From positions 9,644,229 through 9,708,228 of the forward strand of contig OW203988.1 in the NCBI GenBank assembly GCA_934047225.1: DNA of 64,000 bases, in the 5' to 3' direction. Positions 5,683 to 58,979 of the stretch are shown here, piece after piece. Source of the DNA: Ypsolopha sequella. Its lineage: Eukaryota; Arthropoda; Insecta; Lepidoptera; Ypsolophidae. The position numbers and the translations under genes are program-made. A model generated the notes under the pieces. The model saw only the letters and a list, made by a program, of their open reading frames with translations, made no database searches and was not told where the DNA came from. Every line of letters begins with the position of its first letter. The stretch's first letter is position 1.

Positions 5683-5692
5683 TCTCCCTTTT
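5683..5692 (-). promoter_or_regulatory. Polypurine tract of the short retroelement
   Basis: On the minus strand AAAAGGGAGA lies directly before the 3' LTR, the position where plus-strand cDNA synthesis is primed. Confidence 0.75.
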
Positions 5693-5984: not shown

Positions 5985-6236
5985 CTACCTTTTCCTGTAC
6001 ATCGCACCAGTTAGCGTCGTCGCTGCTTTGATCAGGCTGTGTAGTTGGTTCGCATTTAACGAGGTAGCGTCTATTTCGTCGATATCGAACTCCTTGTGGA
6101 CTACATAAGAACGCGGAGTATCCGCGTTTCCCACTACCGATACCGTTCCGCGACTTCTTGTTTTACATTGAACCAACGCAGCGTCATCACCAACTTTAAG
6201 TGCGGGCAATTCTTTACATGTTATGTCAAAATACAT
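5985..6236 (-). pseudogene. Remnant of the pol (integrase) C-terminal tail
   Basis: An 83-codon open frame from an ATG at 6236. It contains a LKVGD segment and a PRSYVV motif, which in gypsy-type Pol proteins occur in the basic region near the end of integrase. Nothing of the catalytic core precedes it, so it is a fragment left after internal deletion rather than a working protein. Homology is judged by eye from the short PRSYVV context; a chance match is possible but unlikely given its place before the 3' LTR. Confidence 0.6.
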
Positions 6237-6535
6237 TTTTTATTTTTATTTTTTATGATTGGTTTTAATAATGCCGGATGTATAGGTACTTTAACAAATA
6301 ACTTAACATATTCTAACAAATAATTGATCTCTATATGACCAGTAATTCTGTAAATTGTTACATAAATAATTTTTTTTACTTAGGCCATCCATTTTTTATA
6401 TATTTTAATAAAGACACCAAAATTTCATCCATTTTATTTTCCTAATTTACAATTTGTAATTTGTTTGTTGAGATACCTGAACTTTTAACTATCATATTTT
6501 GTACATGCAACAAAACATTTTTGTTAATCTTGCTA

Positions 6536-7540: not shown

Positions 7541-7669
7541 TATAAATCCTTCAACGATGAAATATTTCCAAACTAACAATAAACTTAGAAGCCTAGATAT
7601 ACTTATACTATACGGAAACACTTTATTCTCCAAAAACTCGCGAGGATTACTCAGATATTTAAAAATACA

Positions 7670-7681
7670 CCGCTGTCACCA
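7670..7681 (-). promoter_or_regulatory. Primer-binding site of the short retroelement
   Basis: On the minus strand TGGTGACAGCGG directly follows the 5' LTR. A TGG start fits pairing with the CCA end of a tRNA. The tRNA species was not determined. Confidence 0.75.
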
Positions 7682-7776
7682 TGTTATATGAGTGAAACAC
7701 ACGAATGGTGGACGACAACAACTTTATTATTATATTCAGTTACCCTACATAGATAATCAATCTACCCTACACAACA
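7682..7776 (-). repeat. 5' LTR of the short retroelement
   Basis: 95 bp, the same as the 3' LTR, which indicates recent insertion. Confidence 0.9.
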
Positions 7777-20533: not shown

Positions 20534-21082
20534 TATAAAAAAAAAACTCTTAACACTTGCACACAATTATTTTATTCTTGTGGTTTATACAATAAATAAC
20601 TTTACTCCTCTTTAAAACTTTATTCGATTAAGTCTCTGTAAAATACAACGGCCAGTTTCCACCACTGCCGACAACCGACTGCCTCTTTTTCGAAAAACTC
20701 ATTCCTGAGCTCGTCTATCCCCACTCGACCCGGCAGCCCGTGGCGGGCAAGCGCACGTGCTGCCACAAAGTCGAACGACCAATAGCAGCTCGAGACAAAC
20801 CAAATCAGATTCCTATTATGTTATTATTCGATTTGACTATGTAATTATTACCTTAAAACATTATACAATTATCTTAATTATTTTATAAAGCATAATTCGG
20901 AATTGATTCATATTTAAAACAGTTCTTTAACAAATAAGGATCGAAACAAACTGACCTCTACCTATGGTGAGGACGAGTACTGAATCATACAAGTACTAAT
21001 TACTTTTAAATCCACTTATGATAATTATTACTACATACAATTATTCTCTAAAATCAAACGCTATTTTTAACAAATCACAACA
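20534..21082 (-). repeat. 3' LTR of the gypsy element
   Basis: 549 bp. On the minus strand it starts TGTTGTGATTTG and ends in a T run followed by ATA. Contains 'gacccggcagcccgtggc'. Confidence 0.93.
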
Positions 21083-21387
21083 TTCGGCCGTCCGACGGCG
21101 GGCTAACTCCGAAGCACGCAATCACAACATTCGACATTAGATTATAGCCAAATTAATTCATATGAATTGTAGAGACGTAATTATAAAATTGATTTCTATT
21201 CGTATCATACAAACAATATTATACTTATATGTATTTTTAAGTACATTCAATTCAGCAGCATATCTGGATCGTTTAGACTAATTTTACGTTTGCTTATATG
21301 GTAAATCAGAAATATTTAGTTAAGAATCTATAGATATAATAACAAATAAAAACTTAGAACTAACTTAACTATTGTCCTAACTGAATT

Positions 21388-24120: not shown

Positions 24121-26185
24121 TTCGCACCAGTAGTATAGGGCTGGCATAATTTGAGTCTGATTCTTGTATAATTTCATTTTCGACAAGTTCATCAACCATT
24201 TCCCTAACTTTTTGGCGTTCGTGATGCGAGAGACGGTAAGGCCTGTAAACAACGGGAGTGTTGTCATGCAGGTCTATGCTCATTGCTGTTCCCTTTGCGC
24301 AACCTAGTTCGCCAAGATTTGTCGCAAAACAGTTACGATATTTCTGCAATAGCTCGTATAGTTTGTCTTGCACATTCTCCCCAACGTTGTCTGCTACTTT
24401 AACATCGGACTTATTTAAAGGCGGGAGATCGCTACATTTCCTATCTGTTTGGACGATAAATGTCTTAGTCTCCCCGATCGGACGAACTCGGGCTATCAAT
24501 CGGTCAGCTTTGAAAACGATTGGGGCATTTGTCAGCGCGGAAACAAACAATACTGCCTTTCCTTCATCAACTCTATAACAACCTTGATGCAATTGATATT
24601 CCTGAGTTGGGGTAAGTCTGGTGCTCCCGTCAGTGTAGATATCACCCGACAAAGGTTCTTTCGAATAAACTTCCACTAACCCACCTTTGTTAATTGTCGC
24701 ATCCCTGATGACATAGAGATCAATGGTTCCTTCTGCTCTGTCAGGAACACCAGACGGGGTGTGATAAAATGTAAGTCTTTCAGCGTCTTTCAAGACAGTC
24801 ACTGATTCAAGTTCAGTGAAGTTTTGCCCTATTAGCAATGGGGTACCTAAAAATGTATCATCAACGACCAAGACATCTAACTCCGCGTCGATTTCATCTA
24901 TCCTAACGCTTACAGTGGACTTAAATCTTGGAGTGACTGTGGAGTTTCCAAAACCTTTTATTGTTGGTACAACAGTTTCCTTTTTTGAAAGCCTGAGAGC
25001 CTTTGCGTCTGATAATCTTATGAGACTGCACTCACTTCCGAAGTCCACGTACGCATCCACCAAAGTACCATTCGCGCAGATAGTTTTATAAAATTTCTCA
25101 TTAGAGCTATTTGGGGTTGTGATGGTAACAGACTGAGAACGGGTTGCTTCTGTAAATCTCATGTCCATTGGTTCTTTAGCAAGATCAAGGGATATGTTAA
25201 TCATCTCCGGCGCCCTACAAGACTCTACTCGTAAAACTTTTTTTTCGGATGAATTATTTTGGCCACCGGCGCCACTAACTGTTGATTGTTGCAAGGGTTT
25301 TCTCACGCAATTCTCAGAGTTATGGCCTACTCTTCCACACTTAACGCATTTCGTAAGGGGCTTGCTACAGGTATGGAAAGTATGACCCCGTTCGTTGCAA
25401 TTGAAGCAGACTACCTCTCTCCCTCTGTTGTTAAAAGATCGAAACTGATTGTTGCCCACCGGACGGGCATCCCAGCGTTTAAAAGTATTAGGAACAAATG
25501 CACCTCGTGGATTTTCTTTTGGCTGCTGCGACGCAAGAAAACTTAAAAGATCCTCTGGTTCTTCACACTTAAGGGCTTGTGCCCCGCTCCTAACTGAACT
25601 ATCTGATAAGCCGTATATTATACAATCAACCGCCTTGCGACCGACAATCTCGCACCTGCTTAAAAGCGACAGTTTATCATAGAAATAATCTTTAAGAGTT
25701 TCGTCTGTGCGAGATTTTCGGTTCAGCATCTCTTCCAGCTTTTTGCCAAAATTCATATCATTCGGAAAAGCCTTTTTAAATTTAGACTGCCACTCGGTCC
25801 AAGAATGATCAATCGAGGAAAGAGACTCGTACCATTTCTTTGCTAAGCCACTCAATTTTTGAAGAGCGTAGTGTATTGTTTGCTTATCGTCCCATTTGTA
25901 AATAGCAGCACACTCGTTGACCTTTCTAAGCCAACGCTCGACATCCTGGGCTTTATTGCTGGGGTCGAATTCGGGGACTACGTTAGTAGTTGAATTTATT
26001 TTACTTGGTACGTTTTGAAGTGCAGTAATAATCTTCATTAAGTCCTCCGCCGACATCCCTGATCTAGACTTTTTGCTGCTGGGTTCTTCGTCATCGTCAC
26101 TTGAAGACTTGCGGCGACGCCGCCTCCGAGGACGAGGAGGCGTGGCGCTCTCATTGGTTTCATCATCACCTGAAAGTTTCGGCAC
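24089..26185 (-). CDS. gag: gypsy Gag-protease with start of RT
   Basis: Structural protein plus aspartic protease. The open frame begins right after a stop at 26186-26188 and its first codon is GTG; the first in-frame ATG is at 26056 (residue 44), so the start is uncertain. Residues 10-45 are basic and serine-rich. Residues 75-225 are capsid-like (with ERWLRKVNECA and KKWYESL). Two CCHC zinc knuckles follow at 260-273 and 280-293 (C260, C263, H268, C273). A retropepsin-type active site is DFGSE at 381-385, where D-T/S-G is usual, so F replaces T/S. The last 60 or so residues are the RT N-terminus, ending at the A10 frame break. Confidence 0.9.
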   Translation of the reverse strand: MPKLSGDDETNESATPPRPRRRRRRKSSSDDDEEPSSKKSRSGMSAEDLMKIITALQNVPSKINSTTNVVPEFDPSNKAQDVERWLRKVNECAAIYKWDDKQTIHYALQKLSGLAKKWYESLSSIDHSWTEWQSKFKKAFPNDMNFGKKLEEMLNRKSRTDETLKDYFYDKLSLLSRCEIVGRKAVDCIIYGLSDSSVRSGAQALKCEEPEDLLSFLASQQPKENPRGAFVPNTFKRWDARPVGNNQFRSFNNRGREVVCFNCNERGHTFHTCSKPLTKCVKCGRVGHNSENCVRKPLQQSTVSGAGGQNNSSEKKVLRVESCRAPEMINISLDLAKEPMDMRFTEATRSQSVTITTPNSSNEKFYKTICANGTLVDAYVDFGSECSLIRLSDAKALRLSKKETVVPTIKGFGNSTVTPRFKSTVSVRIDEIDAELDVLVVDDTFLGTPLLIGQNFTELESVTVLKDAERLTFYHTPSGVPDRAEGTIDLYVIRDATINKGGLVEVYSKEPLSGDIYTDGSTRLTPTQEYQLHQGCYRVDEGKAVLFVSALTNAPIVFKADRLIARVRPIGETKTFIVQTDRKCSDLPPLNKSDVKVADNVGENVQDKLYELLQKYRNCFATNLGELGCAKGTAMSIDLHDNTPVVYRPYRLSHHERQKVREMVDELVENEIIQESDSNYASPILLVRKKKWRITPLH
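24111..24124 (-). other. Homopolymer frame break between gag-protease and RT
   Basis: On the minus strand an A10 run interrupts the RT N-terminal segment. The upstream frame terminates shortly after it and the downstream frame continues the RT domain without loss. A one-base length change in the run would account for this. It may be a real mutation, a sequencing or assembly error, or a slippage site. Confidence 0.85.
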
Positions 26186-26619
26186 TTACTGTTCTTTCCT
26201 TATAATCAAGACAATTCATAGGTAAGCCTATCTAATTACTCCACAATGAAAGCACTAAATGAATTGAATAATATTTCATGTATTCGTAAATTGGAAATTT
26301 GGAAAGCGTACGTGCAAAACTAGGGGCAAGCATTATGCGTAATGTAAACTTATATTTGTACTCGAATCGTGGGTTCATGCACCCAAAGAAGAGCGTCCTA
26401 GTTTTGGACTAGTCTATTGGTGTGACAAATCACAGATATTTATTATCAAAATTATAAAGAGTCGAACGGAAAACTCTCTGCTGGAACGATGACGATCGTG
26501 TGAACGTCATTGCAGCAATTGTATGCATTTAATAATTACTTGTAACGTACATGTATGTTTTTTGAATAACGACTGTATTATATATACTTTATTATTATCA
26601 CCTTCACGGCCGCAGAATC

Positions 26620-27258
26620 TTATTACAGCACACCTACATGGCCGCATAATCATTATTATAACAGCACACATACATGGCTGTGTCTATCAAACGGCTCACC
26701 TACATGGCCGCACCATCATTACTATAACAGCACACATACATGGCTGTGTCTATCAAACGGCTCACCTACATGGCCGCACCATCATTACTATAACAGCACA
26801 CATACATGGCTGTGTCTATCAAATGGCTCACCTACATGGCCACATCATTACTATAACAGCACACATACATGGCTGTGTCTATCAAATGGCTCACCTACAT
26901 GGCCACATCATTACTATAACAGCACACATACATGGCTGTGTCTATCAAATGGCTCACCTACATGGCCATATCATTACTACAACAGCACACATACATGGCT
27001 GTGTCTATCAAATGGCTCACCTACATGGCCATATCATTACTACAACAGCACACATACATGGCTGTGTCTATCAAATGGCTCACCTACATGGCCACATCAT
27101 TACTATAACAGCACACATACATGGCTGTGTCTATCAAATGGCTCACCCACATGGCCATATCATTACTATAACAGCACACATACATGGCTGTGTCTATCAA
27201 ATGGCTCACCTACATGGCCATATCATTACTATAACAGCACACATACATGGCTGTACTT
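26620..27258. repeat. 63/66-bp minisatellite in the gypsy leader
   Basis: About ten tandem units. Each unit is itself two related half-units, 'cacacatacatggctgtg' and 'ctcacctacatggccac'. The first units are 66 bp and the later ones 63 bp. Because both lengths are multiples of three, one plus-strand frame (26523-27287, 254 codons) stays open through the array with a histidine-rich period (AHLHGHIIT..AHIHG). That strand is antisense to the element and I regard the frame as a by-product. Confidence 0.9.
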
Positions 27259-27527
27259 TAATGCTAGGTACTGGGGAACTCTCATAAATCGCAACTGGTA
27301 GTGCAGGTAAATAAAAAATAATTAATCTCAAAATCAATTATAGCTTCAGCCCACCTAGCACATAATGATAAATTTATGCTGTGACATCTTTAAAGTAAGT
27401 GGTCTGGATAATGTCATAAGTAAATTAAGGTTTATTCAATAAATTTACGTCCCATACGCTAAACATAAAGCCTCGTAGATAATGTTTCAATTACTGTTAC
27501 CTACATTACGATATACAGTAAAATAAA

Positions 27528-27770
27528 CGGAGAGTAGCCCCGATCATATTATACTGCATACATTAATTAAAGAATTAGTTTAATGAACGATAACTTTATC
27601 GGGGTGTAGCCCCGACCGAAAGTATCGCACGCATTTTACCAATCATTCTAAACTAAAGTATAGAAGTTTCATACAGTAAAATTGCCGGAGAGTAGCCCTG
27701 GCCTAATTGTACTGTATGATGCTGTTGAATTAGCCCAATGCGATGGTAACTTTATCGGGGTGTAGCCCCG
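27528..27770 (-). ncRNA. Four similar stem-loops in the gypsy leader
   Basis: On the minus strand: CGGGGCTACACCCCG at 27756-27770 and again at 27600-27614 (5-bp stem, CTACA loop); CGGGGCTACTCTCCG at 27528-27542 (one G-U); and a 7-bp stem with one mismatch and CTACT loop at 27684-27702. They form two tandem modules, each with one of each type. The role is unknown; packaging or dimerisation signals are possible. Confidence 0.6.
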
Positions 27771-28091
27771 ACCAAAAGTACCGTGTACATTTTGCTAATA
27801 CATATATATTTTTTTTTTTTTTTTGGCACTTAATTCGAAATATTACGTTAATCCCTTGCAGTAGCCGATTCATTAACAGTCTAGCTCTACTACTGACACG
27901 GGCCCAACTTTTCTAGCGCTTGGGAGAAAACTCACTAAACAAAAAATAAAGGAAAAATAATAATTCAAATAGATTAAATTGATACCAGACCACTTGCTAT
28001 TCCATACATAAGGGTTTACACATTGATAAATTGAGATTTACTTACGGTTTTTATCCGACATAGCTCGCAGGTTACTATCGCACTTCTGAAT

Positions 28092-28639
28092 TATAAAAAA
28101 AAACTCTTAACACTTGCACACAATTATTTTATTCTTGTGGTTTATACAATAAATAACTTTACTCCTCTTTAAAACTTTATTCGATTAAGTCTCTGTAAAA
28201 TACAACGGCCAGTTTCCACCACTGCCGACAACCGACTGCCTCTTTTTCGAAAAACTCATTCCTGAGCTCGTCTATCCCCACTCGACCCGGCAGCCCGTGG
28301 CGGGCAAGCGCACGTGCTGCCACAAAGTCGAACGACCAATAGCAGCTCGAGACAAACCAAATCAGATTCCTATTATGTTATTATTCGATTTGACTATGTA
28401 ATTATTACCTTAAAACATTATACAATTATCTTAATTATTTTATAAAGCATAATTCGGAATTGATTCATATTTAAAACAGTTCTTTAACAAATAAGGATCG
28501 AAACAAACTGACCTCTACCTATGGTGAGGACGAGTACTGAATCATACAAGTACTAATTACTTTTAAATCCACTTATGATAATTATTACTACATACAATTA
28601 TTCTCTAAAATCAAACGCTATTTTTAACAAATCACAACA
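28092..28639 (-). repeat. 5' LTR of the gypsy element
   Basis: 548 bp, the same as 20534-21082 apart from one fewer A in a run. It presumably carries the promoter; no TATA box was assigned. Confidence 0.93.
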
Positions 28640-29214
28640 TAATAAAGCAACGTATTCAAACAAAGCCTTTCCCTTTTACATAAAAATACCCAACCTAAGT
28701 CCGCCACAGCCACCGGTAGCGACAAACGCAAGTAATCGCGACCAACCTTTCCTGAGTACGTTCAAAAATTCACAAATTGTCACTATTATTGTAACTCTGA
28801 CACCAGGGCAACCTGTGGCGCTTCACCGAGTTTCTGAACGCTCAGCGTTCGCAACGATATCTCGCGGCACGTCAATAGTCACTCGTAGAAGACATTACGG
28901 GAGTTTCTGGCACAGTTAGTTCTTAGTTCCTGAACAGCCACAATGTAAAACTGTCCTAACAACAGTGCTGGATTTCGGGTAAGTGTTCTTTGGACTTCTA
29001 ATGGGAGAGTCGGAGATGTTGGGGGACCAAGTACCCGAGTCTATTTCGGATATGGATACAGAAGTTGGATGTTGTATGTTAAAATTCTTTTCAGCATTTA
29101 GAATATAATCAACACAAATCGACGACAAATATATTTACATTTTTTTACAAACAGATTGATTAGAAAAACAGAGCATTGAAACTCATTTGTGTCAATCTCC
29201 TAGATTTACATTAA
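28640..29214. other. Intergenic sequence
   Basis: A moderately GC-richer patch lies at 28690-28920. I see no gene. Confidence 0.4.
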
Positions 29215-41157: not shown

Positions 41158-41231
41158 GGTTTCGTGCCCAAAAGGCAAATCGAAGCCCTATTAATGTCAC
41201 TCCGCTATCCGTCTATCTGTCCGTATGTCAC
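41158..41231 (+). repeat. 'gggttccgtacc'-type segment between SINE units
   Basis: 'agggtttcgtgcccaaaag' through 'gtatgtcacgggtccgtag'. The same junction with SINE sequence occurs in inverse orientation near 55135, so the two parts travel together. Confidence 0.6.
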
Positions 41232-41516
41232 GGGTCCGTAGGTTCGTATTATAGGATGGGTAGGTATTTATTTAGACTGACAGACTTTAAAAGAACACGT
41301 AACTGAACTGTTTTATTAAGATTCAATCAATATTTATTACAATAATAAATAGTCTAATTATTATTAGAGTGCATTACAAATTTGAAATCAATCAGAAACA
41401 AATTTATAAGCACAAATATTTTGAAAAAATTCCTCGTGCCAGGATTTGAACCTGCGACCTCCTGCTTACATGACAGGCGCGCTACCGACTGCGCTACCGA
41501 GGTTCGTATCTGGAAC
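41232..41516 (-). mobile_element. tRNA-derived SINE family T (tRNA-Thr-like head)
   Basis: On the minus strand the head (41516 to about 41445) reads 'gtagcgcagtcggtagcg' (box A region), an anticodon loop 'catgtaa' with TGT on a 5-bp stem, and 'aggttcaaatcctgg' (box B). The outer acceptor pairs and one T-stem pair fail, so this is a SINE head rather than a tRNA gene. The body continues to a T/A-rich tail containing 'gtaatgcactctaataata'. Confidence 0.75.
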
Positions 41517-42576: not shown

Positions 42577-42722
42577 CTATCTTATATATCAAATACTGCA
42601 TTTTTCAAACTTTCCTTTACACTCATATCGTAAAATAAGAATTATAGAATTAAATGAGACTTGAGGATAATTCATGATTTATATAAAAACGGCTCACCTC
42701 AATACGTGTTATGATCGGGAAA

Positions 42723-42763
42723 GCCGACCAGTTTCAGCAGATTTAGACTGCCTTCATCTGGGC
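42723..42763 (-). ncRNA. Hammerhead-ribozyme-like motif after PLE copy A
   Basis: Same sequence as at 50064-50104, described there. Confidence 0.6.
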
Positions 42764-42775
42764 GAGTAAAGACGT

Positions 42776-45358
42776 TTACGCGACGACGTTACGCCTCACA
42801 CTGCGGGCTGCGGCTCGCAGGGCTCGGGATGACATCGATGCAGATGGTATTGGTGGTCGGACCGGTAGGGCGTCCGCACAATTAGTTACTTCCGGGCTTG
42901 CGTTATTATTTACCGGAGTGACACCAAACAACGATAAACACGCGGAACTTATAGTATCTACGTCACTTTCAGTAAAGTCTGTGAGTGATCCGGTAACTGT
43001 TTTTAGCACAGGTTTCCACACCGCGGGCAAAGCCCAACCACTGTCTCTATTGAAATTCGGACGTCGGCTTATTTCTATGGATTCGCGAATTTTACGTGGC
43101 ACAAATAACTTTTCACGAACTAACACTTTCGCTTTATCGAATCTCATAAAATGTGTAGTATCCGAATTTACGACATGGTCTGCAACGGCGGATCCGTTGC
43201 AATCGAGTTTTCTCATGCATCTAATGTGTTCCGTCAGTCTGGTTGACACGTTCCGTCTCGTCTCACCGATGTAACTCTTGCCACAGTCACATGGGATGGA
43301 ATAAACACCGGGGGTATTTAGTGGCTCTTTGTCCTTCGGCGAACGCAGTAACTGCCTTAATCTACTGGGTGGACGGAAAAATGTTTTAATGCTGTATTTC
43401 CGGCGAAGCAGATGTCCTATTTTATCCGTCACACCCTTCACAAATGGAAGATACACCGGAGCTCTTTCAACCACATGTGGGCGCTGATAGGTGGACTGGT
43501 TCGCTATCCGGTTACACTGCCTCCAGTTGTAGCCATTACTCTCAAGTACGTTTCTGACATGACTGAGTTCAGCGTCCACATATTGCAGATCGCACAGACT
43601 CAGTGCTCTGTTAATAAGCGTACGAGGGACGGACGAGAGATGTTTCGGGTGATGGTGTGAGTCTGCTCGCAGGTATCGGTCTGTGTGTGTTTGTTTCCTG
43701 TACACCGTGTGTTCCAACCTGCCTCCGGGACTTCGTACCACCAACACGTCGAGAAACGGTAAAACACCATTGACTTCACTCTCACTAGTAAACGCTACTT
43801 TAGGATGGATGGAATTTAAGTGTGCTGTGATGTGTTCCACTTCATTACGATTGACAATGGCAAAAACATCGTCAACATAACGCCACCAGTATCTTGGAGT
43901 ATACGGTGTATTCTGAAGAGCTTTTTGCTCAAACCACTCCATGAATATATTTGCTACTACCGGAGCTATGGGGGAACCCATAGCCACTCCGTCAGTTTGA
44001 AGGTAAAAATCTCCACGCCAGATCAGATAGCCGCTTCGAAGACAAAATTCTATAATGTTTATGTACTCTATAGGCATATCATTTTCCTTCAATAGGTCAG
44101 CGATGATATTTACTGTCTCTCCCACAGGTACATTCGTGAATAGGGAAGTCACGTCGAAGCTAACCATAAGTTCGTTGTCCTTTAAACGAACATCATCCAA
44201 CATTTGAACGAAGTGTCTTGAGTCCTTCACATAGCTACTCGTTTTCCCCGTCAATGGTTGTAAAATGTTTGCCATATGACGTGACAAATTGTATGTCGGC
44301 GAATCAATCTGGCTAACTATTGGTCTAAGAGGCCAGTTGGGCTTGTGAATTTTTGGTAGCCCATATATTTTTGGAGCAGTAGGGTTACGGGGTCTGAGAC
44401 GATTTACGAGCTCCCGATCGTGTTCCGGCAATGTCTCCAAGAGCTTTTGTACTTTTGTTGTCACTCTGGATGTTGGATTGTAGTTGACTTTTTTGTAAGT
44501 GCTGGTATCACTTACTAACTCCGTGACTTTGCATTCGTAATCGATTGTGTTTACGATAACCGTCGCATTGCCTTTATCGGCCGGTAACACCAATAATTCG
44601 TCATTTTTCCGCAAACGATGTAATGCAGAAAGTTCTTGCTTAGATATGTTCGGCTTAGGTAGTTTAGATTTGCGCAACAGAGTAGAAATATCTTGCCTGA
44701 TACATTCTGCATCGTTAACAGGTATTTTATTACGAAAGATTGTATCTTCAACGCTTGCAATAATACTCTCCACAGGTAATTTGTCAGGGGAAGGTGCAAA
44801 ATTTATCCCTCGCGATAAAGCATTAAAGGTATCATCACAAATCGTGTGTGACGAGAGGTTAACAACGTTCGCGCCTGAAAATGCGTTACTACTATTACGC
44901 GAATGTGATTGTTGCCTATCAAATTTGAGCAGGCGCTTCAACTTCTTCGCTTGTGTTGTGATAACTTCTTGTAAAATTACCTGTGATCTGCTGTAAGTCA
45001 TGGCATCTAAAACTTCCCATAAGTCACTCCTTAAAGCATTTGATAACTCCAAATGTAATTGCATTAACTCACTGTTTACAAAAGCCACATCCCGACGGTA
45101 GTTTTGAATAACATTCGCCAATAATTTCTTGTTTGCCACTTCGAAGAATTTCTCACAATGTCGAATGCACTTTACCGGTTTGATTATCGCGAACTTTGGT
45201 ATAACGCCACAATCACGACACTCAACACAGTATTTTAATCCGCACTCAAGTTTGTGTCGACGAATTCTTAGGCGCGTGAAACGATTCACTTTTTGTTGAC
45301 ATACCTTGCCGTAAAGGTTAACAATTATAGAATTAAATGAGACTTGAGGATAATTCAT
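42776..45358 (-). CDS. PLE reverse transcriptase/GIY-YIG endonuclease, copy A (860 aa)
   Basis: Single protein that nicks target DNA and copies PLE RNA. ATG at 45358. A cysteine-rich N-terminal patch (C39, C44, C47, C50) has unknown role. RT domain, roughly 240-545: LPADKGN at 258-264, YGLPKIHKP at 332-340, SFDVTSLF (D402), MGSPIAP at 460-466 and catalytic YVDD at 494-497. GIY-YIG nuclease domain, roughly 680-785: GVY 684-686, YIG 696-698, R707, E710-H711, a C690-x-C692 pair typical of the PLE CCHH finger, and a downstream IRESIEI segment with a candidate catalytic glutamate (E759 or E762). Frame fully open. Shadow frames on the other strand are artefacts. Confidence 0.95.
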   Translation of the reverse strand: MNYPQVSFNSIIVNLYGKVCQQKVNRFTRLRIRRHKLECGLKYCVECRDCGVIPKFAIIKPVKCIRHCEKFFEVANKKLLANVIQNYRRDVAFVNSELMQLHLELSNALRSDLWEVLDAMTYSRSQVILQEVITTQAKKLKRLLKFDRQQSHSRNSSNAFSGANVVNLSSHTICDDTFNALSRGINFAPSPDKLPVESIIASVEDTIFRNKIPVNDAECIRQDISTLLRKSKLPKPNISKQELSALHRLRKNDELLVLPADKGNATVIVNTIDYECKVTELVSDTSTYKKVNYNPTSRVTTKVQKLLETLPEHDRELVNRLRPRNPTAPKIYGLPKIHKPNWPLRPIVSQIDSPTYNLSRHMANILQPLTGKTSSYVKDSRHFVQMLDDVRLKDNELMVSFDVTSLFTNVPVGETVNIIADLLKENDMPIEYINIIEFCLRSGYLIWRGDFYLQTDGVAMGSPIAPVVANIFMEWFEQKALQNTPYTPRYWWRYVDDVFAIVNRNEVEHITAHLNSIHPKVAFTSESEVNGVLPFLDVLVVRSPGGRLEHTVYRKQTHTDRYLRADSHHHPKHLSSVPRTLINRALSLCDLQYVDAELSHVRNVLESNGYNWRQCNRIANQSTYQRPHVVERAPVYLPFVKGVTDKIGHLLRRKYSIKTFFRPPSRLRQLLRSPKDKEPLNTPGVYSIPCDCGKSYIGETRRNVSTRLTEHIRCMRKLDCNGSAVADHVVNSDTTHFMRFDKAKVLVREKLFVPRKIRESIEISRRPNFNRDSGWALPAVWKPVLKTVTGSLTDFTESDVDTISSACLSLFGVTPVNNNASPEVTNCADALPVRPPIPSASMSSRALRAAARSVRRNVVA

Positions 45359-45405
45359 GATTTATATAAAAACGGCTCACCTCAATACGTGTTATGATCG
45401 GGAAA

Positions 45406-45446
45406 GCCGACCAGTTTCAGCAGATTTAGACTGCCTTCATCTGGGC
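45406..45446 (-). ncRNA. Hammerhead-ribozyme-like motif between PLE copies A and B
   Basis: Same 41-bp fold as at 50064-50104, in the 100-bp spacer. Confidence 0.6.
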
Positions 45447-45458
45447 GAGTAAAGACGT

Positions 45459-48041
45459 TTACGCGACGACGTTACGCCTCACACTGCGGGCTGCGGCTCG
45501 CAGGGCTCGGGATGACATCGATGCAGATGGTATTGGTGGTCGGACCGGTAGGGCGTCCGCACAATTAGTTACTTCCGGGCTTGCGTTATTATTTACCGGA
45601 GTGACACCAAACAACGATAAACACGCGGAACTTATAGTATCTACGTCACTTTCAGTAAAGTCTGTGAGTGATCCGGTAACTGTTTTTAGCACAGGTTTCC
45701 ACACCGCGGGCAAAGCCCAACCACTGTCTCTATTGAAATTCGGACGTCGGCTTATTTCTATGGATTCGCGAATTTTACGTGGCACAAATAACTTTTCACG
45801 AACTAACACTTTCGCTTTATCGAATCTCATAAAATGTGTAGTATCCGAATTTACGACATGGTCTGCAACGGCGGATCCGTTGCAATCGAGTTTTCTCATG
45901 CATCTAATGTGTTCCGTCAGTCTGGTTGACACGTTCCGTCTCGTCTCACCGATGTAACTCTTGCCACAGTCACATGGGATGGAATAAACACCGGGGGTAT
46001 TTAGTGGCTCTTTGTCCTTCGGCGAACGCAGTAACTGCCTTAATCTACTGGGTGGACGGAAAAATGTTTTAATGCTGTATTTCCGGCGAAGCAGATGTCC
46101 TATTTTATCCGTCACACCCTTCACAAATGGAAGATACACCGGAGCTCTTTCAACCACATGTGGGCGCTGATAGGTGGACTGGTTCGCTATCCGGTTACAC
46201 TGCCTCCAGTTGTAGCCATTACTCTCAAGTACGTTTCTGACATGACTGAGTTCAGCGTCCACATATTGCAGATCGCACAGACTCAGTGCTCTGTTAATAA
46301 GCGTACGAGGGACGGACGAGAGATGTTTCGGGTGATGGTGTGAGTCTGCTCGCAGGTATCGGTCTGTGTGTGTTTGTTTCCTGTACACAGTGTGTTCCAA
46401 CCTGCCTCCGGGACTTCGTACCACCAACACGTCGAGAAACGGTAAAACACCATTGACTTCACTCTCACTAGTAAACGCTACTTTAGGATGGATGGAATTT
46501 AAGTGTGCTGTGATGTGTTCCACTTCATTACGATTGACAATGGCAAAAACATCGTCAACATAACGCCACCAGTATCTTGGAGTATACGGTGTATTCTGAA
46601 GAGCTTTTTGCTCAAACCACTCCATGAATATATTTGCTACTACCGGAGCTATGGGGGAACCCATAGCCACTCCGTCAGTTTGAAGGTAAAAATCTCCACG
46701 CCAGATCAGATAGCCGCTTCGAAGACAAAATTCTATAATGTTTATGTACTCTATAGGCATATCATTTTCCTTCAATAGGTCAGCGATGATATTTACTGTC
46801 TCTCCCACAGGTACATTCGTGAATAGGGAAGTCACGTCGAAGCTAACCATAAGTTCGTTGTCCTTTAAACGAACATCATCCAACATTTGAACGAAGTGTC
46901 TTGAGTCCTTCACATAGCTACTCGTTTTCCCCGTCAATGGTTGTAAAATGTTTGCCATATGACGTGACAAATTGTATGTCGGCGAATCAATCTGGCTAAC
47001 TATTGGTCTAAGAAGCCAGTTGGGCTTGTGAATTTTTGGTAGCCCATATATTTTTGGAGCAGTAGGGTTACGGGGTCTGAGACGATTTACGAGCTCCCGA
47101 TCGTGTTCCGGCAATGTCTCCAAGAGCTTTTGTACTTTTGTTGTCACTCTGGATGTTGGATTGTAGTTGACTTTTTTGTAAGTGCTGGTATCACTTACTA
47201 ACTCCGTGACTTTGCATTCGTAATCGATTGTGTTTACGATAACCGTCGCATTGCCTTTATCGGCCGGTAACACCAATAATTCGTCATTTTTCCGCAAACG
47301 ATGTAATGCAGAAAGTTCTTGCTTAGATATGTTCGGCTTAGGTAGTTTAGATTTGCGCAACAGAGTAGAAATATCTTGCCTGATACATTCTGCATCGTTA
47401 ACAGGTATTTTATTACGAAAGATTGTATCTTCAACGCTTGCAATAATACTCTCCACAGGTAATTTGTCAGGGGAAGGTGCAAAATTTATCCCTCGCGATA
47501 AAGCATTAAAGGTATCATCACAAATCGTGTGTGACGAGAGGTTAACAACGTTCGCGCCTGAAAATGCGTTACTACTATTACGCGAATGTGATTGTTGCCT
47601 ATCAAATTTGAGCAGGCGCTTCAACTTCTTCGCTTGTGTTGTGATAACTTCTTGTAAAATTACCTGTGATCTGCTGTAAGTCATGGCATCTAAAACTTCC
47701 CATAAGTCACTCCTTAAAGCATTTGATAACTCCAAATGTAATTGCATTAACTCACTGTTTACAAAAGCCACATCCCGACGGTAGTTTTGAATAACATTCG
47801 CCAATAATTTCTTGTTTGCCACTTCGAAGAATTTCTCACAATGTCGAATGCACTTTACCGGTTTGATTATCGCGAACTTTGGTATAACGCCACAATCACG
47901 ACACTCAACACAGTATTTTAATCCGCACTCAAGTTTGTGTCGACGAATTCTTAGGCGCGTGAAACGATTCACTTTTTGTTGACATACCTTGCCGTAAAGG
48001 TTAACAATTATAGAATTAAATGAGACTTGAGGATAATTCAT
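45459..48041 (-). CDS. PLE reverse transcriptase/GIY-YIG endonuclease, copy B (860 aa)
   Basis: Identical in layout and length to copy A, with every RT and GIY-YIG motif present. It differs from A and E at residue 343, where L replaces P (context KPNWLLRP), next to the conserved KIHKP motif; the effect is unknown. One further silent change is visible near codon 551. The stop codon of B is separated from the start of A by a 100-bp spacer, so a read-through transcript from B would pass a hammerhead-like motif and then A. Confidence 0.95.
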   Translation of the reverse strand: MNYPQVSFNSIIVNLYGKVCQQKVNRFTRLRIRRHKLECGLKYCVECRDCGVIPKFAIIKPVKCIRHCEKFFEVANKKLLANVIQNYRRDVAFVNSELMQLHLELSNALRSDLWEVLDAMTYSRSQVILQEVITTQAKKLKRLLKFDRQQSHSRNSSNAFSGANVVNLSSHTICDDTFNALSRGINFAPSPDKLPVESIIASVEDTIFRNKIPVNDAECIRQDISTLLRKSKLPKPNISKQELSALHRLRKNDELLVLPADKGNATVIVNTIDYECKVTELVSDTSTYKKVNYNPTSRVTTKVQKLLETLPEHDRELVNRLRPRNPTAPKIYGLPKIHKPNWLLRPIVSQIDSPTYNLSRHMANILQPLTGKTSSYVKDSRHFVQMLDDVRLKDNELMVSFDVTSLFTNVPVGETVNIIADLLKENDMPIEYINIIEFCLRSGYLIWRGDFYLQTDGVAMGSPIAPVVANIFMEWFEQKALQNTPYTPRYWWRYVDDVFAIVNRNEVEHITAHLNSIHPKVAFTSESEVNGVLPFLDVLVVRSPGGRLEHTVYRKQTHTDRYLRADSHHHPKHLSSVPRTLINRALSLCDLQYVDAELSHVRNVLESNGYNWRQCNRIANQSTYQRPHVVERAPVYLPFVKGVTDKIGHLLRRKYSIKTFFRPPSRLRQLLRSPKDKEPLNTPGVYSIPCDCGKSYIGETRRNVSTRLTEHIRCMRKLDCNGSAVADHVVNSDTTHFMRFDKAKVLVREKLFVPRKIRESIEISRRPNFNRDSGWALPAVWKPVLKTVTGSLTDFTESDVDTISSACLSLFGVTPVNNNASPEVTNCADALPVRPPIPSASMSSRALRAAARSVRRNVVA

Positions 48042-48088
48042 GATTTATATAAAAACGGCTCACCTCAATACGTGTTATGATCGGGAAA

Positions 48089-48129
48089 GCCGACCAGTTT
48101 CAGCAGATTTAGACTGCCTTCATCTGGGC
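48089..48129 (-). ncRNA. Hammerhead-ribozyme-like motif between PLE copies B and C
   Basis: Same 41-bp fold as at 50064-50104. Confidence 0.6.
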
Positions 48130-48141
48130 GAGTAAAGACGT

Positions 48142-49057
48142 TTACGCGACGACGTTACGCCTCACACTGCGGGCTGCGGCTCGCAGGGCTCGGGATGACA
48201 TCGATGCAGATGGTATTGGTGGTCGGACCGGTAGGGCGTCCGCACAATTAGTTACTTCCGGGCTTGCGTTATTATTTACCGGAGTGACACCAAACAACGA
48301 TAAACACGCGGAACTTATAGTATCTACGTCACTTTCAGTAAAGTCTGTGAGTGATCCGGTAACTGTTTTTTGCACAGGTTTCCACACCGCGGGCAAAGCC
48401 CAACCACTGTCTCTATTGAAATTCGGACGTCGGCTTATTTCTATGGATTCGCGAATTTTACGTGGCACAAATAACTTTTCACGAACTAACACTTTCGCTT
48501 TATCGAATCTCATAAAATGTGTAGTATCCGAATTTACGACATGGTCTGCAACGGCGGATCCGTTGCAATCGAGTTTTCTCATGCATCTAATGTGTTCCGT
48601 CAGTCTGGTTGACACGTTCCGTCTCGTCTCACCGATGTAACTCTTGCCACAGTCACATGGGATGGAATAAACACCGGGGGTATTTAGTGGCTCTTTGTCC
48701 TTCGGCGAACGCAGTAACTGCCTAAATCTACTGGGTGGACGGAAAAATGTTTTAATGCTGTATTTCCGGCGAAGCAGATGTCCTATTTTATCCGTCACAC
48801 CCTTCACAAATGGAAGATACACCGGAGCTCTTTCAACCACATGTGGGCGCTGATAGGTGGACTGGTTCGCTATCCGGTTACACTGCCTCCAGTTGTAGCC
48901 ATTACTCTCAAGTACGTTTCTGACATGACTGAGTTCAGCGTCCACATATTGCAGATCGCACAGACTCAGTGCTCTGTTAATAAGCGTACGAGGGACGGAC
49001 GAGAGATGTTTCGGGTGATGGTGTGAGTCTGCTCGCAGGTATCGGTCTGTGTGTGTT
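48142..49057 (-). pseudogene. 5'-truncated PLE copy C
   Basis: Only the part from the THTDRYLR segment (residue 557 of the full protein) onward is PLE sequence: the spacer before GIY-YIG plus the endonuclease domain. RT is missing. The open frame runs on to an ATG at 49170, but those extra codons are antisense to copy D across the inversion point. It carries F at full-length position 667 (PPSRFRQ) like copy D, and a private Q at position 785 (KPVQKTV). Not expected to be functional. Confidence 0.9.
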
Positions 49058-49061
49058 ACTT
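49058..49061. other. Inversion point of the PLE array
   Basis: Copy C ends and copy D begins in opposite orientation, separated by about four bases ('actt') that fit neither copy. The two truncation points differ by about 80 bp of PLE sequence. Confidence 0.85.
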
Positions 49062-50051
49062 GTTTTACCGTTTCTCGACGTGTTGGTGGTACGAAGTCCC
49101 GGAGGCAGGTTGGAACACACGGTGTACAGGAAACAAACACACACAGACCGATACCTGCGAGCAGACTCACACCATCACCCGAAACATCTCTCGTCCGTCC
49201 CTCGTACGCTTATTAACAGAGCACTGAGTCTGTGCGATCTGCAATATGTGGACGCTGAACTCAGTCATGTCAGAAACGTACTTGAGAGTAATGGCTACAA
49301 CTGGAGGCAGTGTAACCGGATAGCGAACCAGTCCACCTATCAGCGCCCACATGTGGTTGAAAGAGCTCCGGTGTATCTTCCATTTGTGAAGGGTGTGACG
49401 GATAAAATAGGACATCTGCTTCGCCGGAAATACAGCATTAAAACATTTTTCCGTCCACCCAGTAGATTTAGGCAGTTACTGCGTTCGCCGAAGGACAAAG
49501 AGCCACTAAATACCCCCGGTGTTTATTCCATCCCATGTGACTGTGGCAAGAGTTACATCGGTGAGACGAGACGGAACGTGTCAACCAGACTGACGGAACA
49601 CATTAGATGCATGAGAAAACTCGATTGCAACGGATCCGCCGTTGCAGACCATGTCGTAAATTCGGATACTACACATTTTATGAGATTCGATAAAGCGAAA
49701 GTGTTAGTTCGTGAAAAGTTATTTGTGCCACGTAAAATTCGCGAATCCATAGAAATAAGCCGACGTCCGAATTTCAATAGAGACAGTGGTTGGGCTTTGC
49801 CCGCGGTGTGGAAACCTGTGCTAAAAACAGTTACCGGATCACTCACAGACTTTACTGAAAGTGACGTAGATACTATAAGTTCCGCGTGTTTATCGTTGTT
49901 TGGTGTCACTCCGGTAAATAATAACGCAAGCCCGGAAGTAACTAATTGTGCGGACGCCCTACCGGTCCGACCACCAATACCATCTGCATCGATGTCATCC
50001 CGAGCCCTGCGAGCCGCAGCCCGCAGTGTGAGGCGTAACGTCGTCGCGTAA
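49062..50051 (+). pseudogene. 5'-truncated PLE copy D
   Basis: PLE coding sequence begins at the VLPFLDVLVV segment (residue 532 of the full protein), just after the RT core, and runs through an intact GIY-YIG domain to the stop. The open frame starts upstream at 49023 on sequence antisense to copy C. It shares the F667 variant with copy C. The RT is absent. Confidence 0.9.
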
Positions 50052-50063
50052 ACGTCTTTACTC

Positions 50064-50104
50064 GCCCAGATGAAGGCAGTCTAAATCTGCTGAAACTGGT
50101 CGGC
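50064..50104 (+). ncRNA. Hammerhead-ribozyme-like motif in the PLE spacer (copies D/E)
   Basis: Reading 5' to 3': helix I strand GCC (50064-50066), core CAGATGA (50067-50073; consensus CUGAUGA, so U4 is A), helix II GCAG (50076-50079) with CTGC (50087-50090) plus an outer A-T pair and a bulged G, then GAAAC (50092-50096), a two-base TG loop, GGTC (50098-50101), and helix I return strand GGC. A tiny helix III closed by C-G next to A-U is the known PLE hammerhead style. Predicted cleavage would follow the C of GTC. The U4 change may weaken it. The same motif occurs five times at a 2683-bp period within each orientation. Confidence 0.6.
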
Positions 50105-50151
50105 TTTCCCGATCATAACACGTATTGAGGTGAGCAGTTTTTATATAAATC

Positions 50152-52734
50152 ATGAATTATCCTCAAGTCTCATTTAATTCTATAATTGTTAACCTTTACG
50201 GCAAGGTATGTCAACAAAAAGTGAATCGTTTCACGCGCCTAAGAATTCGTCGACACAAACTTGAGTGCGGATTAAAATACTGTGTTGAGTGTCGTGATTG
50301 TGGCGTTATACCAAAGTTCGCGATAATCAAACCGGTAAAGTGCATTCGACATTGTGAGAAATTCTTCGAAGTGGCAAACAAGAAATTATTGGCGAATGTT
50401 ATTCAAAACTACCGTCGGGATGTGGCTTTTGTAAACAGTGAGTTAATGCAATTACATTTGGAGTTATCAAATGCTTTAAGGAGTGACTTATGGGAAGTTT
50501 TAGATGCCATGACTTACAGCAGATCACAGGTAATTTTACAAGAAGTTATCACAACACAAGCGAAGAAGTTGAAGCGCCTGCTCAAATTTGATAGGCAACA
50601 ATCACATTCGCGTAATAGTAGTAACGCATTTTCAGGCGCGAACGTTGTTAACCTCTCGTCACACACGATTTGTGATGATACCTTTAATGCTTTATCGCGA
50701 GGGATAAATTTTGCACCTTCCCCTGACAAATTACCTGTGGAGAGTATTATTGCAAGCGTTGAAGATACAATCTTTCGTAATAAAATACCTGTTAACGATG
50801 CAGAATGTATCAGGCAAGATATTTCTACTCTGTTGCGCAAATCTAAACTACCTAAGCCGAACATATCTAAGCAAGAACTTTCTGCATTACATCGTTTGCG
50901 GAAAAATGACGAATTATTGGTGTTACCGGCCGATAAAGGCAATGCGACGGTTATCGTAAACACAATCGATTACGAATGCAAAGTCACGGAGTTAGTAAGT
51001 GATACCAGCACTTACAAAAAAGTCAACTACAATCCAACATCCAGAGTGACAACAAAAGTACAAAAGCTCTTGGAGACATTGCCGGAACACGATCGGGAGC
51101 TCGTAAATCGTCTCAGACCCCGTAACCCTACTGCTCCAAAAATATATGGGCTACCAAAAATTCACAAGCCCAACTGGCCTCTTAGACCAATAGTTAGCCA
51201 GATTGATTCGCCGACATACAATTTGTCACGTCATATGGCAAACATTTTACAACCATTGACGGGGAAAACGAGTAGCTATGTGAAGGACTCAAGACACTTC
51301 GTTCAAATGTTGGATGATGTTCGTTTAAAGGACAACGAACTTATGGTTAGCTTCGACGTGACTTCCCTATTCACGAATGTACCTGTGGGAGAGACAGTAA
51401 ATATCATCGCTGACCTATTGAAGGAAAATGATATGCCTATAGAGTACATAAACATTATAGAATTTTGTCTTCGAAGCGGCTATCTGATCTGGCGTGGAGA
51501 TTTTTACCTTCAAACTGACGGAGTGGCTATGGGTTCCCCCATAGCTCCGGTAGTAGCAAATATATTCATGGAGTGGTTTGAGCAAAAAGCTCTTCAGAAT
51601 ACACCGTATACTCCAAGATACTGGTGGCGTTATGTTGACGATGTTTTTGCCATTGTCAATCGTAATGAAGTGGAACACATCACAGCACACTTAAATTCCA
51701 TCCATCCTAAAGTAGCGTTTACTAGTGAGAGTGAAGTCAATGGTGTTTTACCGTTTCTCGACGTGTTGGTGGTACGAAGTCCCGGAGGCAGGTTGGAACA
51801 CACGGTGTACAGGAAACAAACACACACAGACCGATACCTGCGAGCAGACTCACACCATCACCCGAAACATCTCTCGTCCGTCCCTCGTACGCTTATTAAC
51901 AGAGCACTGAGTCTGTGCGATCTGCAATATGTGGACGCTGAACTCAGTCATGTCAGAAACGTACTTGAGAGTAATGGCTACAACTGGAGGCAGTGTAACC
52001 GGATAGCGAACCAGTCCACCTATCAGCGCCCACATGTGGTTGAAAGAGCTCCGGTGTATCTTCCATTTGTGAAGGGTGTGACGGATAAAATAGGACATCT
52101 GCTTCGCCGGAAATACAGCATTATAACATTTTTCCGTCCACCCAGTAGATTAAGGCAGTTACTGCGTTCGCCGAAGGACAAAGAGCCACTAAATACCCCC
52201 GGTGTTTATTCCATCCCATGTGACTGTGGCAAGAGTTACATCGGTGAGACGAGACGGAACGTGTCAACCAGACTGACGGAACACATTAGATGCATGAGAA
52301 AACTCGATTGCAACGGATCCGCCGTTGCAGACCATGTCGTAAATTCGGATACTACACATTTTATGAGATTCGATAAAGCGAAAGTGTTAGTTCGTGAAAA
52401 GTTATTTGTGCCACGTAAAATTCGCGAATCCATAGAAATAAGCCGACGTCCGAATTTCAATAGAGACAGTGGTTGGGCTTTGCCCGCGGTGTGGAAACCT
52501 GTGCTAAAAACAGTTACCGGATCACTCACAGACTTTACTGAAAGTGACGTAGATACTATAAGTTCCGCGTGTTTATCGTTGTTTGGTGTCACTCCGGTAA
52601 ATAATAACGCAAGCCCGGAAGTAACTAATTGTGCGGACGCCCTACCGGTCCGACCACCAATACCATCTGCATCGATGTCATCCCGAGCCCTGCGAGCCGC
52701 AGCCCGCAGTGTGAGGCGTAACGTCGTCGCGTAA
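50152..52734 (+). CDS. PLE reverse transcriptase/GIY-YIG endonuclease, copy E (860 aa)
   Basis: Plus-strand counterpart of copies A and B, starting at the ATG at 50152 in the same context after a 100-bp spacer. All catalytic motifs are intact: D402, YVDD 494-497, GVY/YIG 684-698 and R707. It differs from A and B at residue 658, where I replaces K (YSIITFF), ahead of the endonuclease domain. Full-length and uninterrupted. With A and B it gives three potentially active genes in one array. No promoter was identified; PLE spacers serve as terminal repeats and may contain one. Confidence 0.95.
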   Translation: MNYPQVSFNSIIVNLYGKVCQQKVNRFTRLRIRRHKLECGLKYCVECRDCGVIPKFAIIKPVKCIRHCEKFFEVANKKLLANVIQNYRRDVAFVNSELMQLHLELSNALRSDLWEVLDAMTYSRSQVILQEVITTQAKKLKRLLKFDRQQSHSRNSSNAFSGANVVNLSSHTICDDTFNALSRGINFAPSPDKLPVESIIASVEDTIFRNKIPVNDAECIRQDISTLLRKSKLPKPNISKQELSALHRLRKNDELLVLPADKGNATVIVNTIDYECKVTELVSDTSTYKKVNYNPTSRVTTKVQKLLETLPEHDRELVNRLRPRNPTAPKIYGLPKIHKPNWPLRPIVSQIDSPTYNLSRHMANILQPLTGKTSSYVKDSRHFVQMLDDVRLKDNELMVSFDVTSLFTNVPVGETVNIIADLLKENDMPIEYINIIEFCLRSGYLIWRGDFYLQTDGVAMGSPIAPVVANIFMEWFEQKALQNTPYTPRYWWRYVDDVFAIVNRNEVEHITAHLNSIHPKVAFTSESEVNGVLPFLDVLVVRSPGGRLEHTVYRKQTHTDRYLRADSHHHPKHLSSVPRTLINRALSLCDLQYVDAELSHVRNVLESNGYNWRQCNRIANQSTYQRPHVVERAPVYLPFVKGVTDKIGHLLRRKYSIITFFRPPSRLRQLLRSPKDKEPLNTPGVYSIPCDCGKSYIGETRRNVSTRLTEHIRCMRKLDCNGSAVADHVVNSDTTHFMRFDKAKVLVREKLFVPRKIRESIEISRRPNFNRDSGWALPAVWKPVLKTVTGSLTDFTESDVDTISSACLSLFGVTPVNNNASPEVTNCADALPVRPPIPSASMSSRALRAAARSVRRNVVA

Positions 52735-52746
52735 ACGTCTTTACTC

Positions 52747-52787
52747 GCCCAGATGAAGGCAGTCTAAATCTGCTGAAACTGGTCGGC
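52747..52787 (+). ncRNA. Hammerhead-ribozyme-like motif after PLE copy E
   Basis: Same fold as at 50064-50104; 44 bp before the outer edge of the array. Confidence 0.6.
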
Positions 52788-52831
52788 TTTCCCGATCATA
52801 ACACGTATTGAGGTGAGCCGTTTTTATATAA

Positions 52832-52846
52832 ATCGTAAAATAAGAA
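52832..52846. repeat. Right 15-bp target duplication of the PLE array
   Basis: 'atcgtaaaataagaa', matching 42627-42641 exactly. Its first three bases 'atc' also match the next bases of a PLE unit, so the edge has a 3-bp ambiguity. Confidence 0.85.
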
Positions 52847-54851: not shown

Positions 54852-55192
54852 ATCCATCGCTAGCCCAGTCGGTAGCGTGCCAGTCACGTAAGCAAGAGGT
54901 CGCAGATTTAAATCCTGACCCAAGGAATTTTTTCAAAATATTTGTGCTTATAAATTTGTTTCTGATTGATTTCAAATTTGTAATGCACTCTAATAATAAT
55001 TAAACTATTTATTATTGTAATAAATATTGATTGAATCTTAATAAAACAGTTCAGTTACGTGTTCTTTTAAAGTCTGTCAGTCTAAATAAATACCTACCCA
55101 TCCTATAATACGGACCTACGGACCCGTGACATACTGAGTGACATTAATAGGGCTCCGATTTGCCCTTTAGGTACGAAACCCTAAAAAGGCCG
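54852..55192 (+). mobile_element. SINE family T composite, plus-strand copy
   Basis: The tRNA-like head 'gctagcccagtcggtagcg' ... 'gtcacgtaagcaagaggtc' is followed by the same body as 41232-41516 and, past the same junction, a 'gggttccgtacc'-type segment in reverse ('ctacggacccgtgacata' to 'ggtacgaaaccctaaa'). The head is more decayed than the 41-kb copy. Confidence 0.7.
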
Positions 55193-57842: not shown

Positions 57843-58979
57843 ATTCAAAACGATTTTACGGCTAGTGAAAATGATTTTTTGCCTAAACTAAACTACAAAA
57901 GTAGCTTGTTTCGCAGTTATCTGACGGATCGCAGTCAATGTCTCAGGATTGACGGCCAGGTTAGTGGTCTCGAAGCACTGTCCTACGGAGTACCTCAGGG
58001 TAGTATATTAGGGCCAACGTTATTTATAGTTTACATAAACAGTCTCACGCAACTATTTCAGAGCAACTGTAAAGTTGAAGTTGCATGTTACGCTGACGAC
58101 ACTGCTATAATATTTAGAGATAGCTCCTGGACAGATGTGTTTTCGCAGGTGGAGGTAGGACTAGCGGCTGTAGCAGGGTGGCTACAAAAGAATCTCTTGA
58201 CCCTTAATGTCGATAAAACGAAATATATATGCTTCTACAAAACGGCTGCTTCTTGCCCTCCAACTTCGAGTAATATTAAGGTACACACATGTACACACTG
58301 GAATGATCATGCTGACGTAAGCCCACACCCAATCTGCGCGTGCACTAGCATAAGTCGAGTCGAATCAATTAAATACCTCGGTGTGGTACTTGACGAGAAA
58401 TTGAATTTCAAACATCACGTTCAGAATGTAGCTGCCCGTATTAGAAGACTAATAGGAATCATGAAACTGTTGCGAAGTGGTGCTGACAAATTTATTCTAA
58501 GACTTGTATATCTGGCCCTTTGTCAGTCGATTCTTTGTTACTGCATCACTGCGTGGGGTAGCTGCGCAAAGTCCACCATGCTTATTTTGGAAAGAGCGCA
58601 AAGATCAGTCCTGAAGGTAATGTTAAGAAAACCTTTTAGGCATCCAACTAACGAAGTTTTCAAAGAAGCACAGGTCCTTACTGTCAGGCAATTATATGTG
58701 TTAAGAGTGGGGCTCGCCCATCACAGAACAGAGCTAAAATCTAGTGCGCCCCAAGTTCGTTCAGGGCGACGACTTCGCCTTAATGTCAATACTCCATTGC
58801 TTAAAACAGTTTTCGCTCAGAGGTTTAGCTCGTTCTCGTTTCCTTTCATCTATAAACAGGCATGCAAGTCGTGTAATCTCAAAAAATGTACAGTGCAGGA
58901 GGCAAAAATTGAATTGACCAAATGGTTGTTGACTTTAAATTATGATTCCACCGAAGCCATTTTAGTGATCCCGAAATAA
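57843..58979 (+). pseudogene. Non-LTR retrotransposon (LINE), 5'-truncated RT
   Basis: Remaining C-terminal half of an RT. It shows YGVPQGSILGPTLF (domain 4), ACYADDTAIIF with catalytic ADD, a WLQKNLLTLNVDKTKY segment, KYLGVVLDEKLNF, and then a long C-terminal region with SILCYCITAWGS and LERAQRSVLKVML. This pattern resembles Daphne/CR1/Jockey-group LINEs of insects. Homology begins near the YKSSLF segment, shortly before the RT core, so endonuclease and N-terminal RT are gone. The frame is otherwise uninterrupted to the stop at 58979, so truncation is probably recent. The clade assignment is tentative. Confidence 0.88.

Follow-up and report, generated by a model that had tools for sequence, protein, structure and literature searches.

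A five-unit Penelope-like array in Ypsolopha sequella and what its sister loci suggest about two-ended integration

The array and its element

The window analysed here, a 64,000-nt stretch of the Ypsolopha sequella genome (G000:C5:9644229-9708228), holds a block of Penelope-like element (PLE) sequence at 42642-52834 that is built from units of exactly 2,683 bp (Table 1). A minus arm of two complete units and one 5′-truncated unit faces a plus arm of one truncated and one complete unit, and both arms point their 3′ ends outward. The unit coordinates confirm the order given in the initial annotation (complete, complete, truncated on the minus strand, then truncated, complete on the plus strand), and its statement that three copies retain intact 860-codon genes also holds, three ORFs of 860 aa being open. 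Internal unit junctions keep the exact period with no added bases. At the head-to-head junction, the 5 nt past the filler ACT (TGTTT) are the natural continuation of c3; a templated origin of the filler was considered, the matches were of 6-7 nt only, and no claim is made for it.

Table 1. Features of the PLE block and other elements in the window (unit positions are prefixed p; variants, from the unit comparison, are relative to c1)
Feature	Position	Strand	Remarks
Tc1-like transposase ORF	2288-3316		342 aa; DDE_3 + HTH_Tnp_Tc3_2; 122-nt inverted repeats 2020-2141 and 3549-3670 (78%)
Gag-only non-autonomous-like element	5588-7776		ORF 6536-7633 (-), weak PNMA/gag-like match below curated cut-off; flanked by two identical 95-nt direct repeats
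LTR-type element	20538-28640		RT + RNase H + integrase ORF; 546-nt identical terminal direct repeats; 63-bp tandem repeat at 26631-27254
tRNA-Thr-like sequence, left	41220-41502		in 95% inverted repeat around the array; probably SINE-like
Left target-site duplication copy ATCGTAAAATAAGAA	42627-42641	.	12-bp core 42630-42641
34-nt tail	42642-42675	-	matches the opening 34 nt of one more unit; comparable ends occur at sister loci
Complete unit c1	42676-45358	-	2,683 bp; ORF 42776-45358, 860 aa; no private variant
Complete unit c2	45359-48041	-	ORF 45459-48041; p1028T = P343L, p1653T synonymous
5′-truncated unit c3	48042-49057	-	p1668-2683; p2001T (L667F), p2354A (L785Q)
Filler ACT, 3 nt	49058-49060	.	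head-to-head junction
5′-truncated unit c4	49061-50151	+	p1593-2683; p2001T, p2668A
Complete unit c5	50152-52834	+	ORF 50152-52734; p1973T = K658I
Right target-site duplication copy	52832-52846	.	ATC overlap with element end
Inverted copy of the tRNA-Thr-like repeat	54857-55137		other copy of the 95% inverted repeat
Retroelement fragment	57879-58979		ORF with partial RVT_1

As the initial annotation had it, identical 15-bp direct repeats enclose the whole block: the window has exactly two copies of the 15-mer ATCGTAAAATAAGAA, one at either end of the block, and none on the opposite strand. When sequence to the left of the block is compared with sequence to its right, a 15-mer is common to 445 of 4.7e8 position pairs (a fraction of 9e-7). 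If the element is taken to end where its copies usually do, the duplicated sequence shortens to the 12-mer GTAAAATAAGAA (42630-42641), ATC being element sequence as well. Two such end points recur, termed here site A, which lies just before the next ATG, and site B, which usually lies 34 nt further on and gives a tail. The right end of the block (the 3′ end of c5) is a site-A end without a tail; the left end is tailed, which marks reverse transcription begun at site B.

The element is a canonical PLE. All three full ORFs match RVT_1 above the curated cut-off (E about 6e-11), and the YVDD motif is invariant across a 13-sequence alignment. The predicted structure (mean pLDDT 81) finds telomerase, TERT 3du5, as its best PDB match (E 3.4e-10), which marks the reverse transcriptase as related to telomerase. 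At the C terminus, the GIY-YIG segment GVYSIPCDCGKSYIGETRR...TRLTEH aligns with P0091, a protein in which Pfam GIY-YIG scores above cut-off; a direct Pfam search of the window protein did not reach GIY-YIG. The insert further displays the tandem units/pLTR with an inverted arm, the tail at one end and the duplication around the whole insert that are typical of PLEs. A pLTR hammerhead ribozyme is frequent in Penelope/Poseidon-type PLEs without defining them. No Rfam hammerhead match was obtained here at E up to 10; window positions 50030-50140 (p2562-2672) give a predicted three-way RNA fold (z -1.8), which by eye resembles a hammerhead whose core differs at one base.

Named relatives among the best protein matches are mostly from Lepidoptera, and searches of viral and GTDB contigs yielded no related loci. 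Two PLE proteins filed under Escherichia coli (P0028 and P0060) come from contigs of less than 3 kb and are most likely animal contamination. That so many loci carry almost the same sequence points to recent activity, and because copies of the family are mostly near-identical, the family is probably young.

Two-armed inserts across the genome

A search of the 867-Mb genome with the ORF returned at least 72 matches, representing the best-scoring copies, which form 33 loci, all of which were fetched. Together with the window and an array on C12, which came to light in a second genome search with at least 41 matches, again the best-scoring ones, this gives 35 loci from one assembly of one genome. 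Thirty of these are two-armed with both ends readable, and the remaining five are one-armed. The 30 two-armed loci comprise 27 loci (the window included), L036 and the arrays on C6 and C12; every one has its 3′ ends directed outward and exactly one site-A and one site-B end. Were each end tailed independently with a probability of 0.5, the chance of finding 30/30 one-tailed loci would be 9e-10. Exact repeats of 12-18 bp surround the whole insert at all 30 (26 of the 27 in the main scan; L013, L036, C6 and C12 in a follow-up). As a control with element-free flanks, at least 8 nt were common to 25/27 own pairs vs 6/702 mismatched pairs. The tail is shorter at L013 and C12 (~22-25 nt, read by eye), and the site-A arm is the longer one in 20/27 loci (two-sided P 0.019). 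Among the one-armed loci, L020, L029, L030 and L031 have site-A ends and L032 a site-B end; repeats of 11-15 bp are present at two of the five.

The window array is not exceptional in kind: the same genome holds larger arrays, each read in pieces. One spans ~18.7 kb (G000:C6 about 12676560-12695232) and the other ~15.9 kb (G000:C12 about 18602807-18618717), and both have 13-bp exact repeats and one tailed end. The four stretches read from the C6 array are separated by gaps and take in its centre; the C12 array was read near both ends, its centre and continuity being deduced from orientation and regular search matches. A further locus, C7:22821052-22821567, fits by coordinates alone and is left out of the count. 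At several sister loci the arms are longer than one unit. Inner junctions vary: the arms overlap by as many as 7 nt or have as many as 35 nt between them. The duplication letters of 26 loci are AT-rich (76.5% of 340 vs 62.3% for the window), and these duplications display no clear target motif. At L036, ~1.3 kb of other sequence (679-1982) breaks the left arm, with a short element repeat at the break, much like a later insertion.

The 5′ ends of the arms bear on the RNA that was copied. Among the 27 loci, 15 arms exceed 2,690 nt, and six of them end at p2630-2670; the binomial chance of 6e-8 for this assumes uniform ends and makes the excess look stronger than it is, since arm lengths are not uniform. 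This distribution suggests that transcripts begin at p2630-2670, about 14-54 nt before the ATG. Within p2590-2671 lie the 5′ ends of eleven short arms (32-104 nt) and of six arms slightly longer than a unit, a cluster that may mark the transcript 5′ end. A 5′ end shared by the RNAs of both arms was also considered, prompted by the nearly equal truncation points of c3 and c4 (75 nt apart), and dropped, as close pairs barely exceed re-pairing: arm 5′ ends fall within 110 nt of each other at 7/29 loci vs 5.1 expected (P 0.21), so that a shared broken RNA end is not supported. An apparent cluster of truncations at p780-1010 is probably an effect of the best-scoring matches being those listed and was not used. 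Near the truncation points in the window, an 80-nt RNA fold from p1591 lies in the lowest 8% of energies, and one from p1661 in the highest 3%.

Relatedness of the arms and mode of integration

Variants carried by individual units serve as barcodes for the templates. Four of the five coding changes among the window units alter the protein, and P343L in c2 hits a nearly invariant residue. Within the window, p2001T is confined to c3 and c4, the central truncated units, one per arm, and it is absent from every other locus compared. The chance of any such shared-variant coincidence among the window copies is about 0.002, which implies that c3 and c4 came from one variant template or that one was converted to the other. 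Across 26 loci, the 3′-most units of the two arms of the same locus show 14 differences in 20,006 bases (0.70/kb), whereas arms of different loci differ by 3.26/kb; in 5,000 re-pairings of the arms, a value as low as the within-locus one never came up. Of 24 locus-private variants at co-covered positions, five are in both arms (at L018, L025, L034, L040 and the window) and 19 in one arm only, so that the two arms are not identical. Variants confined to one arm are compatible with miscopying, with multi-unit templates of mixed sequence or with mutations that arose afterwards. At L010, one truncated unit carries three variants that its counterpart lacks. Variants shared by both arms could also have arisen through gene conversion.

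The initial annotation had proposed that the tandem and inverted copies arose during, or before, one integration event rather than by successive insertions. This proposal is supported by the 30 of 30 loci with outward 3′ ends and one duplication, by arms that are far more alike within a locus than between loci, and by the private variant common to c3 and c4. The reading we favor, with a probability of roughly 0.8, is a single integration: reverse transcription of related multi-unit RNAs would have been primed at either end of a staggered break, from two internal start sites, and the resulting cDNAs then end-joined. The sister loci fit such two-ended target priming because the duplication ends are joined to element 3′ ends, the start sites at the two ends differ, and the inner end join is variable.

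Fold-back copying and successive insertion fit the block poorly. Under antisense self-priming, one arm would loop back and serve as the template for the inverted arm, which predicts the head-to-head order and accommodates p2001T in both c3 and c4. However, c4 begins 75 nt further 5′, beyond c3, so c3 cannot have templated the start of c4, and c5 lacks both c2 variants while carrying one of its own; the right arm is thus not simply a copy of the left. Nor do the sister loci agree with self-priming, since their short arms correspond to the 3′ end of the element rather than to the inverse of the 5′ part of the neighboring long arm (at L023, p2615-2717 stands beside p34-2684). Self-priming also accounts neither for the outer duplication nor for the use of another 3′ start at the far end, and we regard it as very improbable. 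More improbable still is a series of independent insertions into the element's own junctions. Such targeting has a precedent in the lizard enzyme, which can cut its own ORF-pLTR junction in vitro (PMC11167929), but the exact unit period, the internal junctions without extra bases, the single outer duplication, the pairing of one A with one B end at 30/30 loci and the relatedness of the arms all count against it. We give equally little credence to an assembly artefact, that is, a palindromic chimera or collapsed repeats. Near-identical inverted arms are indeed hard to assemble, and a 281-nt repeat lies further out in inverted copies (95%; 41220-41500 and 54857-55137). A chimeric palindrome, however, would also invert the adjoining flanks, and the ~300 bp beside each end are not inverted copies of each other; the outer repeat stands at unequal distances from the block, the arms carry private variants, and 29 further loci, spread over many contigs, have the same two-ended layout.

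Two further scenarios concern the origin of the tandem units and are unlikely. A smaller insertion, with c1 and c3 facing c4 and c5, could have gained c2 later by unequal exchange in the left arm. Both arms would then have consisted of one full unit and one truncated p2001T unit, and the four minus units compared in the C6 array share variants found at no other locus compared, as duplicates would. Against this, c1 and c2 have no locus-private variant in common, a multi-unit RNA yields the same product in one step, and arms over one unit are also found at several sister loci. A similarly low probability attaches to tandem units made by copying a circular or re-used RNA several times over, instead of a linear multi-unit RNA. 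It would account for the exact unit period and for the C6 array, where 1902C is in all four minus units compared and 1568G in the three that cover it, both at no other locus compared; circular RNAs are known from ribozyme-bearing retrozymes. Yet the p2001T unit is 5′-most in both window arms, which a uniform circle does not give, and the Rfam search gave no hammerhead match at E up to 10.

From the observed architecture, ends and duplication, the one-A/one-B pattern at sister loci and the relatedness of the arms, we infer what the enzyme did in two-ended priming, which RNA it copied and how the cDNAs were joined, as follows. In an AT-rich target, the GIY-YIG endonuclease would cut the two strands ~12 nt apart and leave 3′ overhangs, a geometry deduced from the target duplication. 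Each 3′ overhang would then prime internally on PLE RNA at a unit junction, with an identity between primer and template of at most 2-3 nt possible at the starts. Synthesis from the left end would begin +34 nt inside the next unit (site B), which accounts for the tail, and synthesis from the right end immediately before the ATG (site A). The two cDNAs would run inward along the same or related multi-unit RNAs, for which X(2001T)-Y-(Z) is the simplest order: the site-A arm on the right would start at the end of Y and copy Y, then part of X, while the site-B arm on the left would start beyond Z and copy Z, Y, then part of X. End joining with the 3-nt filler would finally unite the cDNA ends.

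A stronger version, to which we give even odds, holds that two-ended priming is obligatory for PLEs of this type, with two start sites 34 nt apart that are each used once per insertion. The tail would then be a fixed mark of the second site rather than an optional feature, since each start is used once. If this is true, one complex would hand two 3′ ends to two start sites, and the cDNAs would be end-joined head to head.

Comparison with known retroelements

PLEs are described as a third class of eukaryotic retroelements, and two modes of integration have been put forward for them. Antisense self-priming was proposed for rotifer PLEs in 2013 (PMC3846280) and target priming with internal initiation was proposed from in vitro work in 2024 (PMC11167929). 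The rotifer account describes inverted pLTRs, an optional tail at one inverted end and duplications of 8-10 bp (PMC3846280). Pen2a_Av from Adineta vaga resembles the present element in having a single ORF of comparable length that combines RT and GIY-YIG, in its direct and inverted pLTRs, in the one short duplication around the insert and in the occurrence of partial tandems; its tail at one inverted end measures 31 bp, compared with 34 nt here (PMC3846280). Unlike in Pen2a_Av, the inverted arm here can hold whole intact units, the flanking repeats reach 12-18 bp, and the tail, described there as optional, marks exactly one end at 30/30 two-armed loci (PMC3846280).

PAc/Poseidon from Anolis carolinensis likewise has tandem units, two adjacent internal starts that bound a tail and, in vitro, cutting and extension of both strands (PMC11167929). 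The commonest initiation there lies 111-118 nt into the ORF, whereas the ends here fall at ~0 and +34 from the ATG; a further difference is that the present element has no Rfam hammerhead, and the evidence here is genomic while that for the lizard element is biochemical (PMC11167929). In that work, the top and bottom strands did not differ in start site, so it does not explain the A/B pairing in vivo (PMC11167929).

Earlier publications already report PLE inserts with two arms, as well as tails, pLTRs, partial tandems and outer duplications. The rule of one tailed and one untailed end and the barcodes linking the arms were not found in the PLE literature examined, chiefly PMC11167929 and PMC3846280 together with passages of PMC8969392 and PMC12910113, and priority for them cannot be claimed. 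The 35 long loci examined help to tell the integration models apart by end points formed in vivo, by target duplications and by variant barcodes; they favor priming from both ends of one cut with two strictly paired start sites, a pairing rule that is checkable in other genomes and with purified enzyme.

In the target-primed reverse transcription of LINE and R2 elements, the cut target DNA primes synthesis at the 3′ end of the RNA, and 5′ truncation and target duplication are characteristic outcomes. The block described here has 3′-end target priming, 5′ truncation and target duplication in common with these elements. LINE insertions are normally primed from one end; in contrast, both ends of the PLE insert carry element 3′ ends.
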